Both the position numbers and the translations under genes were made by a program. From assembly GCF_003206645.1 (NCBI RefSeq), contig NZ_PZJP01000001.1:317940-381939 (forward strand): a DNA stretch of 64,000 bases. Direction: 5' to 3'. This document shows positions 333 through 48,169 of the stretch, in pieces. Source of the DNA: Salinicola aestuarinus (lineage in GTDB: Bacteria; Pseudomonadota; Gammaproteobacteria; Pseudomonadales; Halomonadaceae). The number at the start of each line of letters is the position of its first letter. Position 1 is the first letter of the stretch. Under the pieces are notes generated by a model. The model worked only from the letters and a program-made list of their open reading frames with translations. It ran no database searches and was not told where the DNA came from.

Positions 333-1094
333 TTAAACGCCCCCCACCCTGGCTTCGATCTCGGCCTGGCACTGACGCAGAGCCGCTTCCAGGGTCGTGC
401 GCTGGCGGTCGAAGCGTTGTGCTGGCACGGCCAGTGAGAGCGCATAACGCGCTCCCGCGCCGGTGCGTAATGTCACGCCCAGTCCACACACGCCCTCGGC
501 ATGCTCCTCCCGATCGGCGGCGATGCCTGCGATGCGAGCACTTTCCAGGTCCTTGTCGAGCGTCTCACGCGCGGTCAGCGTCTGACCGGTTCGCGCGTCC
601 AGCCTGGCATCCGCGAGCAGTGGCTCGAGCTCCTCAGGGGGGAGCGAGGCCAGCAGTGCCTTGCCATGGGCGGTACAGTGAATCGGGAAGGCCGTACCAA
701 TCGGCGAGACGACCCGCAGCTCCTGATCCGACGGATACTGATCCACCGAGACCGCATGGAGACCGCGATAGACGCTGAGGTCCACGGTCTCGCGGGTGCG
801 CCGCCCCAATGCCTCGACGAACGGCCTCGCGATCTGCGCGATATCGACATGCGCCGCCGCCGCCAACCGGGCCAGCGCGGGTCCCAGCCTGACCCCCTCG
901 GCAGAACTCAATACCAGCTGCTGCGCCTCGAGCGAGACGACCAGCCGATGCACGGTGGTTCGCGGCAATCCTGTCACCTTCGCGATCCCCCCCAGACTCA
1001 TGCCCTGCGGTTGCCCTTCCAGGGCATTGAGAATCGCAGCGGCACGCGCCACCACCTGCTTGCCCCCGCCGTCACTTACCCTCGCCTCGGTCAT
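333..1094 (-). CDS. IclR-family transcriptional regulator
   Basis: 253 residues, the usual IclR length. The N-terminal winged helix-turn-helix spans about residues 12-70 (LGGIAKVTGLPRTTVHRLV). The C-terminal effector domain follows, with the HCTAHGKALLA stretch and the late ADREEHAEGVCGLGV motif typical of the family. It is divergent from an MFS transporter gene at 1208; the 113-bp gap probably holds both promoters, so it is inferred to regulate the transporter or a linked catabolic pathway. The effector is unknown. Confidence 0.85.
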   Translation of the reverse strand: MTEARVSDGGGKQVVARAAAILNALEGQPQGMSLGGIAKVTGLPRTTVHRLVVSLEAQQLVLSSAEGVRLGPALARLAAAAHVDIAQIARPFVEALGRRTRETVDLSVYRGLHAVSVDQYPSDQELRVVSPIGTAFPIHCTAHGKALLASLPPEELEPLLADARLDARTGQTLTARETLDKDLESARIAGIAADREEHAEGVCGLGVTLRTGAGARYALSLAVPAQRFDRQRTTLEAALRQCQAEIEARVGGV

Positions 1095-1207
1095 GCCCTC
1101 TCCCCGCCGATTTCTGCGTTATCGCCAGCCCCAGCCGGGCTTCAGCTTGACAGGATATCGGTTGCCGACCAGCCTGACACCATTCCTACTGGTGGAACAG
1201 CGTACCG

Positions 1208-2380
1208 ATGAGCGGACAATCTGACATTTCTCGCCTGGGCAATTTCACACTGCTGCTGGTGGCCTGCCTGACCATCATGGTCGGTTGCGTCATCGTGCCG
1301 GGGCTACCGGACATCGCCCGCCGACTCGGCGTTCCGCACGCCGCCAGCTGGCTGGTGACCCTTCCGTCGCTGGGTGTAGTGATCTTCGGTACACTGGCCG
1401 GCAAGCTGATCCAGCGCAAGGGGCTATACCGCGCGCTCTGCATCGGCCTGTTTCTCTATGGGCTGCTGGGCGCGGCGGGCGCTTTTCTGCACGGTGTGGT
1501 GATGGTCTTTACCGACCGCTTGCTGCTCGGTGGTGCCACGGCGATCGTCATGGCGGCGGGAACGGGGCTGATCTCGTCATTCCATGACGGCGATGCCCGG
1601 CTGAAGATGATTGCCAAACAAGGCATGAGCATCGAGCTGGGCGGCGTGGTTTTCCTGAGCCTGGGTGGCGTTCTCGCCGGGTTGGCGTGGTTCTGGCCCT
1701 TTGCGCTCTATCTCTTCGCCTGGCTGATGCTGGTGTTGGTGTGGCTGTATGTGCCGGTGCCCCCCACTCGGAAAGACCCGGACGACGATGAAGAAACCCG
1801 GCGTCCGCCCAGCAACGCCATCAGGCGCATCTATGCCGCCGCTTGCGGCTCGATGATCGTGTTCTTCACCGCGGTCATCGTCTTGCCCTATCAACTCCAC
1901 GCGTTGGGCCTCGGAGAGTCCGAGACCGGTTACTTTCTCTCCTTCGTCTCGCTGGTAGCGGTTGGCGCCGCCGCGATCATGCCTCGCGTCATCCGAAGGC
2001 TGGGGGAGTACAACACCCTGTTGATGGCGTTCACCGCTTACGGTGTGGCCCACGGGTTGTTTTCGATCGCCGCCAATCTGCCGCTGATGGTCGCCGGCGC
2101 CATCCTCATGGGGAGCGGATTCGGCCTCTCGGTGCCGCTGGTCAATCACATGACCGTGGAACAGAGCCATGCCGCCGTGCGCGGGCGCAATCTGGCCTAT
2201 CTATCGATGGCCCTGTTCACCGGCCAGTTTCTCTCCGCCTTCACCGAATTCATTCCCGGCTCACGCAGTCTGGTGTTTCTGGTCGCCGCGACCGTGGCCG
2301 GGGTCATGGGGGTCGTGCTGTGGGTCAGTCATCGGTCACATCGGCGCCAGACCAGCGCGGTCACCTCCCCTTTCCGGTGA
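1208..2380 (+). CDS. MFS transporter
   Basis: 390 residues with about 12 hydrophobic segments, an inner-membrane major facilitator. A charged loop (RKDPDDDEETRRPPS, about residues 188-202) separates the two six-helix bundles. The first cytoplasmic loop (GKLIQRKGLYR) resembles motif A. No specific substrate signature is visible. The divergent IclR regulator suggests an inducible uptake or efflux system. The Shine-Dalgarno before the ATG is weak (GGTGGAA). Confidence 0.8.
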   Translation: MSGQSDISRLGNFTLLLVACLTIMVGCVIVPGLPDIARRLGVPHAASWLVTLPSLGVVIFGTLAGKLIQRKGLYRALCIGLFLYGLLGAAGAFLHGVVMVFTDRLLLGGATAIVMAAGTGLISSFHDGDARLKMIAKQGMSIELGGVVFLSLGGVLAGLAWFWPFALYLFAWLMLVLVWLYVPVPPTRKDPDDDEETRRPPSNAIRRIYAAACGSMIVFFTAVIVLPYQLHALGLGESETGYFLSFVSLVAVGAAAIMPRVIRRLGEYNTLLMAFTAYGVAHGLFSIAANLPLMVAGAILMGSGFGLSVPLVNHMTVEQSHAAVRGRNLAYLSMALFTGQFLSAFTEFIPGSRSLVFLVAATVAGVMGVVLWVSHRSHRRQTSAVTSPFR

Positions 2381-5955: not shown

Positions 5956-6093
5956 GTCAATTTGTCCTTGTTATTGCTGCTTTTTGACACTGTGTCTCAG
6001 GGCCACGCTGCGGCGCACTGCCTCCACTGTGTCGTTAGCTCGTCCGCCCCCACCAGGGCGAGCGATCCGGCTATCAAAGCATGAGGCCAGTTA

Positions 6094-6116
6094 TTAATTC
6101 AACTTGATTGAATTAA
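6094..6116. promoter_or_regulatory. Operator of the ROK/NagC-type regulator
   Basis: A perfect 9-bp inverted repeat, TTAATTCAA (6094-6102) and TTGAATTAA (6108-6116), with a 5-bp centre: 23 bp overall, the size of NagC/Mlc-type operators. It stands 44 bp before the ROK regulator gene, in the divergent gap with the permease operon. It is probably bound by that regulator to control both directions. A second, shorter palindrome, GACACTGTGTC, lies at 5986-5996. Confidence 0.65.
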
Positions 6117-6159
6117 ATCGGGACGCAAGACTCGATCCTCTTTCTCGTGGCGATACCCC

Positions 6160-7335
6160 ATGACCACTGGCACCAACGCCGAGTACACCCGACGGCACAA
6201 TCGTCGCGTCATTACCGACGCGCTGCGACAAGCCGGGCGCTTGACGCGAGCCGAGCTCACGCGGCGCACGGCGCTCACCGCCCAGACCGTATCCAACATC
6301 ATGGTCGAGCTCGTCGCGGAGGGGTGGGTCAAGGAACACCCGCCCGAGAAAGCCGGGCGCGGTCAGCCTCCGACGCCCTACTCGCTCAATCCCGCCGGCG
6401 GCGCTGCCATCGGTTTCCACATCGAGCAGCATCAGATCATCGCCGTGGTCATCGACATTGCCGGCGAGCCGCTCGATCGCGCCCACCAGGCTGTGCACTA
6501 CCCGACACTCGACGATGCGCTGCCGCGGATGCTCGAGATGATTCGACGATTTCGTCTCAGAGCCGACCTCCCGCCGCTGCTGGGCGTGGGCATCGCCCTG
6601 CCCGGCCCCTTCGGCGTCGAGGGCATGACGGCGGCAGGGCCGACCGGACTGGCCGGCTGGGGAACGCGAGAGGCAATCGAACGCGTCCGCACCGCGACCG
6701 GCCTACCCGTGTTGATCGAGAACGATGCTGCCGCTGCCTGCATGGGAGAACGCCTGTTCGGCGTGGCCGGTGAACTGCATCACTTCGTTCACCTGCTGAT
6801 CGGTAGCGGTCTGGGGGCCGGGATTCATCTCGACAATCATCTGTATACGGGGCACCGGAACAACGCCGGCGAGATCGGCCATATGGTCGTGGTTCCCGAT
6901 GGCAAGCCCTGTCATTGCGGCAACAGGGGCTGCCTCGAGCGTCACGTCTCGATCTCTGCATTGCTGGAATACATGGGGCTGTCCGCCGACCACATACTGA
7001 CCGAAGAGGATTTTCGGTCACCCGCGGGCGAACGGGGGGCGCGGCAGTGGCTGGAGGAGGCGATGCCGGCCATGCGGCAGGCCATCAGCATTCTGGAATC
7101 GTTGTTCGATCCCCAGAGCATCGTGATCAGCGGGCTGCTGCCCGAGCGGCTGCTCGGTGAGCTACTGGAAGGCCTGGCGCCGTTGCATCACTCCATCAGT
7201 CAACGTGCCGAACGCGCACTACCGCGGGTGCAGGCGGGTACTGCCGGACTGGACAGCGTGGCCCTCGGGGCGGGGGCCCTGGTGGTGCTGTCGCAGATCA
7301 CGCCGCAGTACAGCACCCTGCTGAAAGCCGACTGA
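6160..7335 (+). CDS. ROK-family transcriptional regulator (NagC/Mlc/XylR type)
   Basis: 391 residues. An N-terminal winged HTH (about 20-70; RAELTRRTALTAQTVSNIM) is fused to a ROK sugar-binding domain. The zinc motif CHCGNRGCLERH is present, unlike in the kinase of the neighbouring operon. The sugar-site segments IENDAAAACMGE and GSGLGAGIHLD are visible. It probably represses the divergent permease-kinase-SIS operon until an amino sugar or its phosphate is bound, acting at the 6094-6116 palindrome. Confidence 0.85.
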   Translation: MTTGTNAEYTRRHNRRVITDALRQAGRLTRAELTRRTALTAQTVSNIMVELVAEGWVKEHPPEKAGRGQPPTPYSLNPAGGAAIGFHIEQHQIIAVVIDIAGEPLDRAHQAVHYPTLDDALPRMLEMIRRFRLRADLPPLLGVGIALPGPFGVEGMTAAGPTGLAGWGTREAIERVRTATGLPVLIENDAAAACMGERLFGVAGELHHFVHLLIGSGLGAGIHLDNHLYTGHRNNAGEIGHMVVVPDGKPCHCGNRGCLERHVSISALLEYMGLSADHILTEEDFRSPAGERGARQWLEEAMPAMRQAISILESLFDPQSIVISGLLPERLLGELLEGLAPLHHSISQRAERALPRVQAGTAGLDSVALGAGALVVLSQITPQYSTLLKAD

Positions 7336-11388: not shown

Positions 11389-12330
11389 CGTTCCGACTTC
11401 CCGCGCCCAGACCTGCCGGGGTCGTTCGGGTCGAAGGCCGAGCAAAGGCGTCGTGAAGCGCGCTCGAACGTCAGGCGTGATACAGGCAAGTCGGATGACG
11501 ACGCGTCATGGCAGGAACGAAGCGCAATCGTCACAAGTGGCATTGACAGCGAAGATCGAGAAGATCGCCATTGAGGCGGTTCTGGCTGGGGGAAACGAGC
11601 GGCATCAGCGCAGGGAAGCTGATACCAGAGATGGGAGAGGGCCGTGACGTTAACGGCATGACCCTCGATCAGCACTTGCCGACAGGTGCTGACTGTCACG
11701 GCCCTCGCAAACCGTATTTCCGTGGCAGGAAAAACTCCGTTTTCCGTTCCTTGCGAGTATCCACTCCTTGGATGGCGCCACCCTAACCGCCAGACCCGAT
11801 TAGCGATATCGATTTATGCGATTTAAGAAAACTTAATTGTATCCCCATGTAACACCGCTATAAAATCAGCGGCTTGGCGACGGTCGTCCCCCTCGCACGA
11901 TCGCCATCGGCAAGCGCGAGCTGACCGATCCGACGTCATAACCGGCAACGACGCCGCCTCCCAAAAGTTGTACAAGATCGACGGCTGCCACTGCCTGACT
12001 CCTCGCGTCGCCTTCTTCAGTTCACGCGGATCATGCCGGGTAGCCGGCACCGGCTCGACGGCTCGACTCAAAATCTTTCGATTCCTTGTCTTTCAACTAT
12101 TTAAGATAACAATCGACCGCATTGCGTGCCGCACAGAGGCATGCCCGACAGGGCTCGATCAGCGCCCCCACCCTGGCCGAAAGATCCAACGTAAAAACCG
12201 ATACCGAATTATAACTTGTACAACTTTTTCCGACGTGTCATTCTCCTTACATCGCTGACACGGACCGACAGCGGTATCGAGACGGAAGTTTCAGTCCTAG
12301 GCATGGATTGCCTTTACAGCGCGGCGGCTC
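11389..12330. other. Long intergenic region, no convincing gene
   Basis: The short open frames here lack ribosome sites and protein-like composition. A 14-bp perfect inverted repeat is present: AAAAGTTGTACAAG at 11963-11976 and CTTGTACAACTTTT at 12215-12228. Each copy contains the palindrome TTGTACAA, so the pair may be operator sites. A small hairpin GTGTCA/TGACAC lies at 12235-12261. Confidence 0.4.
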
Positions 12331-15880: not shown

Positions 15881-15901
15881 GGGGCATTGGCCCTCCCAAT
15901 A

Positions 15902-15917
15902 CTGTATTTGAATACAG
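15902..15917 (-). promoter_or_regulatory. LexA (SOS) box of umuDC
   Basis: CTGTATTTGAATACAG matches the consensus CTGT-N8-ACAG exactly and lies within a longer palindrome (15899-15920), 22 bp before the umuD start. It predicts tight repression by LexA and induction after DNA damage. Confidence 0.93.
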
Positions 15918-16075
15918 TATTTAGCGAGAGCGCGCGTTCGGCAACCGTCAATCGGCATCGATGCTGATGCTCAGGGCTGCCGAGCCCGGCGACACGGGCG
16001 CGGTGGGCAACATGAAAAATTCACATGACGGCGTGTCAGGCCGAGTCATGCGATTCTTCAGACCTGAAACGAGAA

Positions 16076-18308: not shown

Positions 18309-18520
18309 GGGTATCTTAGAGCCGCGCCTAGCAATATCAATCACTTAGGTCATTTGGCCCCGTGACTATGCGACGGAATACGACTAGATACACCCGCGAG
18401 ACGACGAGATAGCGCACGAAATAGTCACGCCGGGCGTTACCGATCGATAGGCCCACAAATGCATACCCACCCCGTATAGACGAATTCATCTATTTGCCTA
18501 CCGACCCGCCCTTGTAAATA

Positions 18521-18536
18521 CTGTACGCGCATACAG
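18521..18536 (+). promoter_or_regulatory. LexA (SOS) box before the DUF1654 gene
   Basis: CTGTACGCGCATACAG matches CTGT-N8-ACAG and lies 24 bp before the DUF1654 start, in a longer TACTG/CAGTA palindrome. It places the attL-proximal phage genes under host LexA. Confidence 0.88.
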
Positions 18537-18559
18537 TATCAGCATAGGGAGAACCACTC

Positions 18560-31688: not shown

Positions 31689-32777
31689 TCAGTTCAGTGC
31701 CAGTGTGCCGATAGGGCCGCGACCGCGACTGGTGGTCAGGTAGCGCGAAAGCACGCCGATGTGTTCGCGCCAGTTTCCATAGAGCCTAGAGTCGAGCAGC
31801 TTGAGCGCCGGCCCCACTCGTTCCACGAAGTCCCGCTCCAGTGCGTTGGCTCTACCCGCCAACCCTTCGAGATTGCGCAAAATGGTACTGATTTCGCCGG
31901 TCTCGGCGATGCGGCTGGGATCTTTCGCCAGCTCGATGCAATCTTCCAGGCAGTTGTCGATGCGGTGCTGATACCGTTCTCGCTGATCCTGCGTCAGCGC
32001 TTCGCCGGGCAACGTTCGAGAGATCCTGTCGAGGTAGTGTTGTAGCGCGATCAGGCTGTAGTAGAGCGTCTGAGATTTGCGTGCCTCCGCAGCCGGCGGA
32101 CGAGCGCACTCTAGGTACTCACCCTCGATGGCCCACTGGGCGACGAAGTTGGCCGCGGCGTCCATGTCATTGGCGGCGATCATCTCGGCCTTGGGCACGT
32201 TGAAGCGGGTGTGAAGCAGATTCCAGAGACGGTGCTGAGCGCTGTTGCGAGCGCTCGACGGCAGTACGCGAACCTTCTTGCCGATCAGCTCGCGCAGGAT
32301 CTTGAGGCCGTCGGTACCGATGGTGTCGTCGGCGATGCGGTGGGCGACCTCCGGGGCGATGGCATGCAGCTGCTTCTCGCACTCGATGAAGTAGCGCCGG
32401 GCCTGCTTGCCCTTCTCGTTGCGCTCGACCATCGACAGCTCTTTAGCCATGTCGAGGGTGAGGTGGTATTCAGTCCTGGGCCGGCCACCAAGAGGTTTTT
32501 TCCCGTTTTGGAAAATACCCTCCGCTCCCCCATTTTGGGGAGTGGTGTTTGATGCCCAATTTTGGGCAACGGTCTTTGCTTCCCCGCTTTGGGAAGCAAT
32601 CAGAAAGTCTTGGTTTTCTTCGAACCCGTACTGCTTGATCCGCTCCTTGATCCACGCTCCAAAAACCTTACCTACCTCAAGGAATCGATGCAGCGTGCGT
32701 GCGTCGACGAGATGCGCGGTTTCATGATCGATGGTGCCGGTGAAGACGGGGATGATGCTTGCGGCCTGCGTAGCCAT
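31689..32777 (-). CDS. AntA/AntB-type phage antirepressor carrying an internal hairpin array
   Basis: 362 residues. The N-terminal AntA/AntB domain has VDARTLHRFLEVGKVFGAWI and KQYGFEENQDFL (about 25-59), continuing after a spacer with GRPRTEYHLTLDMAKELSMV (about 98-117). The spacer (about 59-94) is a repeat built on QSG/QNW/QNG/QNG and is encoded by four exact 27-nt DNA units at 32496-32603. The C-terminal half is a helical domain seen in other phage antirepressors. Antirepressors inactivate the CI-type repressor. It has its own leader with a Shine-Dalgarno hairpin and C4-like RNA, in the late region, not beside cI. Confidence 0.8.
   Translation of the reverse strand: MATQAASIIPVFTGTIDHETAHLVDARTLHRFLEVGKVFGAWIKERIKQYGFEENQDFLIASQSGEAKTVAQNWASNTTPQNGGAEGIFQNGKKPLGGRPRTEYHLTLDMAKELSMVERNEKGKQARRYFIECEKQLHAIAPEVAHRIADDTIGTDGLKILRELIGKKVRVLPSSARNSAQHRLWNLLHTRFNVPKAEMIAANDMDAAANFVAQWAIEGEYLECARPPAAEARKSQTLYYSLIALQHYLDRISRTLPGEALTQDQRERYQHRIDNCLEDCIELAKDPSRIAETGEISTILRNLEGLAGRANALERDFVERVGPALKLLDSRLYGNWREHIGVLSRYLTTSRGRGPIGTLALN
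32496..32603 (-). repeat. Four-unit 27-nt hairpin array inside the antirepressor gene
   Basis: Four consecutive units, each exactly 27 nt: 6-nt arm, 6-nt loop, 6-nt arm, 9-nt spacer. Arms on the plus strand are TTTTCC/GGAAAA (32498-32515), CTCCCC/GGGGAG (32525-32542), TGCCC/GGGCA (32553-32568) and GCTTCCC/GGGAAGC (32578-32597). The stems differ but always pair, while the loops stay alike (CGTTTT, CATTTT, AATTTT, CGCTTT). The other two reading frames also give repeats (PKRG/PKLG/PKWG and PKAG/PKIG/PKMG), so structure at the nucleic-acid level appears to be what is conserved. Confidence 0.85.
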
Positions 32778-32807: not shown

Positions 32808-32925
32808 CGCCTCGTCACTTGCACTTGATTGGGGGCGGACCGTACGCAGGTGTGCAAGACCGGGGAACGTAGGCAACCCGGCAGGCCGAAGCCTCCCGCG
32901 CACGGCCCGCCATAACAGGCAGGCA

Positions 32926-33003
32926 CAAAAAAAGCGCCAATGGGCGCTGTGCGCCATACGTTCTGTTCGGGCTTGCACACCCGGCCGCTGATTTTGCAGC
33001 GGC
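32926..33003 (-). ncRNA. C4-like antisense RNA
   Basis: About 78 nt with three hairpins in order: CCGCTG/CAGCGG (33002-32985); CGGG/CCCG (32983-32968) presenting GTGTGCAAG in its loop; and terminator stem AGCGCC/GGCGCT with seven T residues (32948-32926). The loop sequence GGTGTGCAAG is exactly complementary to CTTGCACACC in the downstream antirepressor leader (32858-32849). This matches the organisation of phage P1/P7 immI, where C4 RNA blocks translation leading into ant. Family assignment is from remembered architecture, not a covariance search. Confidence 0.6.
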
Positions 33004-33009
33004 AAGGAG

Positions 33010-33038
33010 ATAGTGGCCCAGGTAGGCGCAGGCGTCAA
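33010..33038 (-). promoter_or_regulatory. Promoter of the C4-like RNA
   Basis: TTGACG (-35, 33038-33033), a 17-bp spacer and CACTAT (-10, 33015-33010). The predicted start falls at about 33003, exactly at the base of the first hairpin of the RNA. A constitutive host-type promoter here would keep the RNA on in the lysogen. Confidence 0.5.
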
Positions 33039-46439: not shown

Positions 46440-46606
46440 GCCATGTACCTCCGGCCCCGGTAGTGCGGGCGGTTCGGGGCGAGCTGGCAATCGACACATG
46501 CCGCCAGCACAACGCCTTGGCGCTTCATCTTGCTCAGCGTCTTGAACTCACGGCACGCCGGACACTGGATGCGATCTCGCGGCTTTCGCAATGCTGGCTG
46601 ACTCAC
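46436..46606 (-). CDS. Small zinc-ribbon protein
   Basis: 56 residues from a GTG at 46606 that overlaps the Rha stop (GTGA), behind GAGGAGG. The cysteines QCPACREF and ACVDCQLA give a zinc ribbon; the ends are basic. Unknown function, nin-like region. Confidence 0.6.
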   Translation of the reverse strand: MSQPALRKPRDRIQCPACREFKTLSKMKRQGVVLAACVDCQLAPNRPHYRGRRYMA

Positions 46607-47385
46607 GCTGCCTCCTCGCCGAGAACCTTCGCTATGCTCTCCGCCCACTTGATCTGCTGCACTGCCGTGCCGTCGCTGTGCTTCTTGCTCGTGTCGTAGA
46701 GCCGTCCGCCAGCCTCTCGGCCCCGGCCAGTCAGCCGCCAAACGGTCTTGCCTTTGGCGTCCCGGTCCTGCCATTGGTAGCCGAGATCCCGCAGCAACCG
46801 ATTGACCGACACCGCGCTCATGTCGAACTCACGCCCCAGCTCGGTCGGTGTCAGATAGCGCTCGTTGGCCGGGCTGAGCAGATGCGTCGCGCCGAGCTCG
46901 GCAAGCAGGTCGATACCCGTCCGGCGGTGGGTCTGCTGGTTGACGCTCAGACGCCGCATGTTGTCGTCCAGACCCAGTGCCCGGGCCGCAGCATCCAGCG
47001 CCCCAGCGATGGCGGATGCCCGCGAGATCGCCGCCACGTCATCCATTGGGGCCGGGGCTGGCTCGGCACGCAGTTGGTCGCGCATCTCGTAGAACGTGCG
47101 AACCAACCGCTTCTTGAAAGCCCGGACGATGTCGGTGTTGCGCATGTACGTGAGCAGCAGCGTCGCCTGGGGCTCGTTGAGGCTCGCGACCTCGCGGCGC
47201 TGCGTCCCGCCGCTCGTCTCAAAGGGTTGGATTTCAAATCCGACCCTTCCGAACTCCTCGAGGTCGTCCCGGTGCTCGCGCACCAGGCGCACCACCGAGG
47301 CGTGGTCACGGTCGATGCCCTCGGCGATCGCCGTCGTGGTTGTGATCAGCTCGCCGGCGTCTCCGGCAATGACGATGTCTGTCAT
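46603..47385 (-). CDS. Rha-family phage regulatory protein
   Basis: 260 residues from the ATG at 47385. The N-terminal Rha domain has HASVVRLVREHRDDLEEFGR, REVASLNEPQATLLLTYMRN and FKKRLVRTFYEMRDQL. The C-terminal part has a winged-helix pattern (YLTPTELGREFDMSAVSVNR). Rha proteins interfere with phage growth in strains lacking IHF and are thought to be regulators. It lies in the early operon after P. Confidence 0.8.
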   Translation of the reverse strand: MTDIVIAGDAGELITTTTAIAEGIDRDHASVVRLVREHRDDLEEFGRVGFEIQPFETSGGTQRREVASLNEPQATLLLTYMRNTDIVRAFKKRLVRTFYEMRDQLRAEPAPAPMDDVAAISRASAIAGALDAAARALGLDDNMRRLSVNQQTHRRTGIDLLAELGATHLLSPANERYLTPTELGREFDMSAVSVNRLLRDLGYQWQDRDAKGKTVWRLTGRGREAGGRLYDTSKKHSDGTAVQQIKWAESIAKVLGEEAA

Positions 47386-47386
47386 C

Positions 47387-48169
47387 TCAGGCCCTCCCGT
47401 TGGCGGTTGCGGCACGCAGCATCGCGAGCCCCTGGTCGGCGTTCATTCGATCCGGCAGGCCAGCGGCCTCGGCGCGGTGTTGGGCGGCCTCACGGCTGGC
47501 ACGCTCCGCCAGCTCCGCCCGGTTGCGTTGGGTATCGGTCTCGAGCAGTCCCTGGGCGGCGAGCGGCTGCCCAGCCATCACTCGATTGACGAGCGCCCCG
47601 TACTCCCGCTCGAACCGCTTTTCGAGCCGGGCGCGGACGCTCTGCGCGGTCGTGCTGTGGATCTCCCGCCAGCCCACCGTTTGCCCCGCCAGCCGCACCG
47701 CCTCATGGCTCCAGCGGCAATCGTTCGGCGCGTGGCAATGGGCGCACGCCTCACGCCAAGCTGCGTCGAGTGTCGGCAGACCCATATCCTCGGGGCGCGG
47801 CTCGCACATCGCGGCGAACGCCACCGGCTGCGGTGGCCATGCCGTGTCGCTGCTTTTGGCGGCATCGCGAACGGCTTGCCGTAGACGACGCACACCCAGT
47901 TCGAGGTGGCGGGTGGTCAGGTGGCTCAACTCCGCCAGCCAGGTGCCGTCGTCGTAGTCGCCCCACTGGCTCGAGAACTTGGCGGCGTAGAGCGAGCGCA
48001 TCGCGTCGAACAGGTAGTCCATGCTGCGCTCAGTGACCGGATGTCCATTCGCCGTCGAAGCACTGTCCTGCGCGCCCTCCGGCTGGCTGCTCTCGCTGCT
48101 GGCGATCCCGCTCCCGTGCCTCGGCAGCTGAGAGACGGCGCGATTGAGTGCGTGGGCGGCCGGTTGCAT
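47387..48169 (-). CDS. Replication protein P-like
   Basis: 260 residues from the ATG at 48169 behind GGAGG, a start that lies inside the O gene (140-bp overlap). It has the P-family features DYLFDAMRSLYAAKFSSQWG and DDGTWLAELSHLTTRHLELG, WPPQPVAFAAMCEP. In lambda, P loads the host DnaB helicase at the O-bound origin. The extent of overlap with O is unusual. Confidence 0.75.
   Translation of the reverse strand: MQPAAHALNRAVSQLPRHGSGIASSESSQPEGAQDSASTANGHPVTERSMDYLFDAMRSLYAAKFSSQWGDYDDGTWLAELSHLTTRHLELGVRRLRQAVRDAAKSSDTAWPPQPVAFAAMCEPRPEDMGLPTLDAAWREACAHCHAPNDCRWSHEAVRLAGQTVGWREIHSTTAQSVRARLEKRFEREYGALVNRVMAGQPLAAQGLLETDTQRNRAELAERASREAAQHRAEAAGLPDRMNADQGLAMLRAATANGRA

Follow-up and report, generated by a model that had tools for sequence, protein, structure and literature searches.

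The window, the whole 64,000-nucleotide stretch of Salinicola aestuarinus DNA that was analysed, carries on its minus strand an open reading frame of 362 amino acids (32777-31689), with an AntA DNA-binding domain at the N-terminus and, in the AlphaFold2 model, a helical C-terminal part. The match to Pfam AntA/AntB (PF08346) reaches 89.6 bits against a cut-off of 27 over residues 24-120, with an E-value of 1.9e-25, and on this domain match the protein is a putative antirepressor. Upstream of the reading frame and on the same strand, Rfam matches mark a C4 antisense RNA at 32828-32917 (RF01695), an isrK-like RNA at 32928-33003 (RF01394) and the a1/b1 targets of the C4 RNA at 32964-33016 (RF03163); judged from these matches, the locus is a P1/N15-like, RNA-controlled antirepressor locus. 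Elsewhere in the window, perfect palindromes with CTGT-N8-ACAG cores lie at 15898-15921 and 18518-18539, and they resemble LexA (SOS) boxes.

Within the antirepressor gene, 190-271 nt past its start codon and between the two halves of the AntA domain, four inverted repeats occupy positions 32495-32599 with axes exactly 27 nt apart, and the hairpins, spacing and placement given in the preliminary description are thereby confirmed. Each unit is a 24-bp dyad read on the minus strand. In ascending coordinates, 8, 8, 6 and 9 of the 9 pairs at dyad positions 4-12 are formed in unit 4 (32495-32518, positions 4-7 CCTT), unit 3 (32522-32545, CCCC), unit 2 (32549-32572, CCCG) and unit 1 (32576-32599, CCCT), respectively, unit 2 being the weakest. 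The arms differ from unit to unit, whereas positions 4-7 are symmetric within every unit (16/16 pairs), and the coding (minus) strand is rich in A at the centre. The array folds far better than dinucleotide-shuffled sequence, with z -5.6 for one strand and -5.1 for the other, and no Rfam family matches it at the gathering threshold. A recent tandem duplication of a 27-nt unit was considered and rejected: Tandem Repeats Finder reports no array, and the spacers differ by eye.

In the AlphaFold2 model, which has a mean pLDDT of 75.6 overall and block values of 93-97 over residues 11-60, strands 11-16 and 19-25 are followed by helices 26-33 and 39-50, a strand at 58-61, a low-confidence loop at 62-102 and a strand at 103-107. 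The array corresponds to about codons 60-95, and we read the fold as a winged helix-turn-helix with the array in the DNA that would encode the wing loop. Codons 37-41 (K V F G A; 32655-32669, minus strand) extend from immediately ahead of the second helix, the predicted recognition helix, into its first residues, in the high-confidence part of the model. No useful relative emerged among solved structures, the best E-values being 0.75 in the sequence search and 0.36 in the fold search.

The dyad is a property of the gene family. AntA linkers were collected from genomes, viral contigs and annotated phages with a protein pattern that misses divergent members, and the 407 linkers, which come from phages or prophages of Proteobacteria, Firmicutes and Bacteroidota, were merged into 251 distinct ones. 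When the geometry is fixed (positions 4-12, even axis), at least 8 of the 9 positions are paired in 197 of the 251; random windows from these loci reach that level in 30 of 1152 cases and downstream windows within the genes in 9 of 500, and synonymous recodings keep such a dyad in only 64 of 1255 cases. Relaxing the requirement to at least 7 of 9 raises the count to 237 of 251 linkers (94%), compared with 17% of random windows, and leaves 14 that pair at no more than 6 positions. The dyads sit at nearly the same place in the gene, their arms differing between relatives, and consist of 9-bp arms around a 6-bp centre; the axis is even in 146 of the 148 distinct dyads scoring at least 7 and odd in 2. 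Pairing is 0.86-0.98 at positions 4-12, a plateau somewhat inflated, its edges less so, by the choice of the axis for high pairing, and falls to 0.46 and 0.37 at positions 13-14 and to 0.18-0.58 at positions 1-3. The axis is found in all three codon phases (61, 43 and 42), and the peptide is therefore not what is kept. Together with the recoding control, this bears out the earlier view that selection acts on the nucleic acid; where homologues might have shared the spacer peptide and lost the paired stems, they instead keep the pairing and lose the peptide.

Repetition of the unit is less general than the dyad itself. Two to four sites occur in some relatives, but 201 of the 237 linkers have one, at a lenient threshold that admits some chance second hits among the remaining 36, and the exact 27-nt period, although true of the window gene, is particular to it: among relatives with clear multiple sites, axis spacings are 28, 30, 33, 36, 42, 47 or 57 nt. 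Among 10 annotated phage genes the linker stem is the strongest of the scanned stretch in only 2 (L189 and L197), the remainder having weaker or imperfect stems, with the best stem of Sfi21 and of Vibrio 431E48.2 lying outside the linker.

Mutual information was computed between the AntA domain columns, with the linker left out, and the dyad bases of 237 sequences (Neff 129), the 14 linkers with no more than 6 pairs being omitted. All five top residue-base pairs join columns 27, 28, 30 and 31 (residues 37, 38, 40 and 41 of the window protein) with dyad positions 4-7, column 27 appearing twice, and the resulting associations come close to a code. In column 27, K or R goes with C at positions 4 and 5, D with G, and Q with T then A (weighted counts at position 5: K to C 33.1/34.0, D to G 11.3/11.3). 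Column 31 is related to position 6, D occurring with C (40.4/40.5), N mostly with G (18.9/26.9) and A with T, and position 7 follows both column 28, where D is found with C (39.5/41.5), and column 30, where K or R is found with G (17.8/17.8), N with A and A with T.

The predictive value of these columns was assessed on 123 of the 237 sequences, retained because they had at least 8 pairs, arms that agree at positions 4-7 and helices free of redundancy, with only proteins less than 55% identical used for prediction. The four helix columns predict the exact 4-mer at positions 4-7 for 48.0% of the 123, against 4.8% on average for four other variable columns (best of 40 draws, 10.0%), and success rises to 92.9% for the 33 sequences that have a relative matching all four helix residues; lifting the identity limit gives 78.4% of the 123 versus 14.4%. 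Proteins less than 55% identical that have the four helix residues in common carry the same 4-mer in 33 of 36 pairs, compared with 205 of 4898 for all pairs below 55%. When each 60% cluster is reduced to one representative (n=36), the helix columns still rank at the top, with a few others among them, whereas with 11 or 7 very distant representatives they no longer dominate the ranking. Since the helix residues predict the letters of the dyad, the AntA domain very probably binds the palindrome in the DNA encoding its own wing; the computed dyad in the reading frame and the helix-to-base code thus locate a predicted binding site within the gene that encodes its presumed binder.

An RNA helix favours G-U mismatches over A-C, and we compared the two classes in the AntA dyads. 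In one set G-T and A-C mismatches number 18 and 22, and among 131 mismatch cells of 144 distinct dyads 28 and 31, so that G-U is not tolerated more than A-C. The near-equality of the two classes, the fixed parity and the constant spacing of the half-sites speak for a dimer site in double-stranded DNA. RNA hairpins in the ant mRNA that control translation or decay, or that bind a protein, are in our view very unlikely: the strong folding (the z of -5.6), the A-rich centre on the coding strand and the position of the gene within an RNA-regulated C4/isrK locus would all suit them, but they leave the mismatch balance unaccounted for, the recognition helix of the protein tracks the dyad bases, and an RNA loop need not be even. 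For the same reasons the RNA-binding array, one of the four functions first suggested for the hairpins, is not supported, whereas the DNA-binding array among those suggestions fits the evidence. A role as DNA hairpin or cruciform agrees with the symmetry taken alone. The palindromes could also be kept by mutation, template switching repairing a quasi-palindrome in an unconstrained loop with no selection involved; this process would produce compensatory changes, and stems free of mismatches, in a loop that varies, but it leaves unexplained the fixed even axis, the fixed 9-bp block and the agreement of helix residues with bases in proteins less than 55% identical, and we consider it extremely improbable.

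Further copies of the sites were sought near promoters and elsewhere in loci of at least 9 kb, and in 81 of 83 cases none rose above decoys. Both exceptions belong to one locus (L039) with two tandem ant genes (6022-6711 and 11440-12126) that lie 5.4 kb apart and carry the same dyad, and are thus probably cross-bound. No second copy stands out in six phage records (31-49 kb) or in the 64-kb window: in these 7 sequences the next-best sites match 11-13 of 16 letters, where decoys have a mean of about 12 and maxima of 13-14. The core pattern of unit 4 occurs without mismatch at one place in the 3.87 Mb genome. Mobile in-frame palindromic elements of the Rickettsia type insert the same element at many unrelated places; AntA dyads differ in being nearly fixed in place within one gene family with no cognate copies standing out elsewhere, and the idea of a mobile hairpin cassette is not supported.

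Comparison of closely related phages indicates what is exchanged. In the Listeria phages L479 and L518 about 250 nt of ant, comprising the recognition helix and the dyad, are only 52-80% identical, between flanks that are identical for about 1.0 kb before and 96-100% identical for about 2 kb after. A similar stretch of about 175 nt differs between the Listeria phages L494 and L502, which are 98-100% identical over the 1.5 kb before it, 92-100% in the rest of ant and 82-100% further down. The flanks are more mosaic in 42 Lactococcus loci, where six cassette types were labelled and 2 loci were left unlabelled; the dyads of types e and f (8/42 loci) are imperfect. On these alignments, protein specificity and site travel together, and the AntA domain and its site are swapped jointly in the Listeria phages. 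The early proposal of a recombination hot-spot that swaps specificity therefore survives in part, namely in the joint exchange, but a role of the palindrome as the recombination site finds no support. The same data bear on the possibility that the dyads are operators for a different regulator placed in ant, such as the prophage CI repressor, which could naturally have its operator in an early gene. The bases, however, follow the helix of the encoded protein, the cassette of domain and site differs between near-identical flanks in L479 and L518 (the repressor gene itself was not located), and no copies stand out elsewhere, unlike repressor operators, and this explanation appears scarcely credible.

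The four units of the window are not alike in predicted specificity. The helix KVFGA predicts CCTT, which is found in unit 4 only, and this preference is extrapolated because G at helix position 30 is absent from the code table (weight at least 2). The CCCC of unit 3 is the usual site of KDFST-type helices, the CCCT of unit 1 is the site of KRFAT-type helices, and the CCCG of unit 2 is absent from the single-site genes of the sample; with the units differing at positions 6-7, one strict specificity cannot explain all four. Several other multi-site genes likewise mix their own with a different 4-mer, as in L006 (ATCG and CTCA), L056 (CCGC and CCTT) and L082 (CCCT and a CCGT/CCGC site); L158 has CCCC-like sites twice. 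Either unit 4 fits the gene's own helix and units 1-3 are for other antirepressors, or a relaxed helix reads all four, which is possible given that the window protein has small or non-polar residues at 38, 40 and 41.

Five sister antirepressor families also show family-specific intragenic dyads. In loci sampled in one uniform way for every family, dyads paired at 8 or more of 9 positions cluster at one place in the gene and in one parity in AntA (even, 15/29), Rha (even, 17/30), Bro-N (odd, 13/30) and ORF6N (odd, 11/30), and also in KilA-N (even, 8/26) and P22_AR_N (odd, 7/11), the last two resting on small sets. These best bins are maxima over many bins, where the flanks lead one to expect 0.2-0.9 dyads per bin; both the HTH_3 control, in its best bin, and ORF6N, in the wrong parity, reach 4/30. 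In larger viral sets, each made up of relatives of one query, Bro-N genes have dyads of at least 8/9 in 60 of 63 cases (59/60 odd) and Rha genes in 42 of 63 (40/42 even), and here the evidence is the parity skew, not the 8/9 count, because the best of many axes was taken. In the Rha helix FGKQHKDVLRKI one residue tracks position 5 (weighted: D to G 10.2/11.7, N to T 10.6/11.6, H to C 3.3/3.3), in a ranking that also includes columns adjoining the dyad, and the Bro-N ranking, with an Neff of only 14.5, includes columns outside the helix.

Individual genes show both agreement with and departure from these parities. P22 rha has an even 8/9 dyad at what is by eye the usual Rha place, and an odd 8/9 dyad occurs in N15 gene 30, which by eye is Bro-N-like. 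The window holds a second antirepressor gene with a Rha family match (46603-47415, minus strand), whose 8/9 palindrome at about 47222-47248 is odd, against the even Rha set. P22 ant (L847, 15091-15993) has an even palindrome paired at 12/13, 192 nt into the gene, where the P22_AR_N set is odd. On another contig of the window's assembly (L560), the reading frame 1030-2028 (minus strand) encodes a Bro-N antirepressor with a 9/9 odd dyad, and its C-terminal half resembles by eye that of the window AntA protein, so that the DNA-binding domain appears to have been exchanged on a common C-terminal part.

In our judgement it is highly probable that the hairpins are dyad-symmetric DNA operators for an AntA-type dimer, kept in the wing-encoding part of its own gene. 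From the computed dyads and code we infer an operator of two 9-bp half-sites around a 6-bp A/T-rich centre, which would be bound by an AntA winged-helix dimer and would change together with the reading helix in the AntA family. The antirepressor dimer would then sit within its own gene, 190-271 nt past the start and in the path of RNA polymerase, and a bound dimer might block the polymerase, acting as a brake on the antirepressor with polar damping of the downstream genes. Such self-limitation of ant by a roadblock, with downstream damping, may be the most likely role of the operators, a view we hold about evenly for and against, and its main alternatives are an origin function and cross-control by other antirepressors.

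If the array were a replication origin, AntA would be an initiator whose gene carries the dyads as iterons, in the manner of lambda O. An origin would suit the four spaced sites in the presumed binder's gene and the lack of outstanding further copies, and P22 gene 18 carries an annotated origin inside the gene; yet most AntA genes have one site, and 5 of the 6 phage records annotate separate replication, helicase or helicase-loader genes, the sixth, Mcat4, having few named genes. We therefore regard an origin as very unlikely, and self-limitation by the operators remains our preferred role.

Tentatively, the results can also be joined into a wider reading that is possible but far from probable, in which phage antirepressors (AntA, Rha, Bro-N, ORF6N, KilA-N and P22_AR_N) would as a general rule carry an operator within their own gene, with a dyad geometry particular to each family and a readable code, and in which genes like that of the window have added operators of rival specificity. 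Antirepressors of co-resident or incoming phages would in that case switch a window-type gene off, or be titrated by it, and a contest of prophage specificities would be written into one gene.

Antirepressors decide whether many prophages wake, and to our knowledge little is known of the targets of their variable N-terminal domains. If the operator interpretation is true, the target of an antirepressor could be read from the gene itself and a recognition code obtained from sequence alone, domain swapping would amount to the swap of a matched protein-and-site pair, and strong palindromes in coding sequence that resemble RNA structures would be explained.

Sites inside AntA genes are undescribed in the open-access literature covered, which includes PMC6237814, PMC4825925 and PMC4488713, subscription journals lying mostly outside its scope. 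Among the closest known systems, P1 C4/icd/ant and N15 antA likewise have an antirepressor gene downstream of a C4-type antisense RNA; that control acts before translation of ant (PMC4488713), whereas the intragenic dyads of the window would be another layer. In P1, ant1 (L849, P1 48600-49900) has an even 8/9 palindrome 435 nt into the gene, its N-terminal region differing by eye, and the P1 record also annotates Ant2, a shorter product that begins internally and lacks the first 83 residues. The small terminase gene of P22, with its internal pac site, likewise contains the recognition site of its own DNA-binding product, although that site serves the start of packaging and not regulation. The coding sequence of the lambda O initiator gene contains sites to which the DNA-binding domain of its product binds, and P22 gene 18 by its annotation is similar, but these belong to a different protein family, whereas AntA genes have mostly one site and no sign of a replication role. 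A further parallel is C.Kpn2I, a restriction-modification controller that has its site inside its own frame, acts there as an elongation roadblock and so limits its own synthesis, and which its authors call unique among C-proteins (PMC6237814). AntA resembles it as a regulator with a site, here predicted to be bound, inside its own reading frame; C.Kpn2I as described there is a single case, whereas the predicted AntA sites extend over whole phage families with hypervariable specificity and up to four sites per gene.
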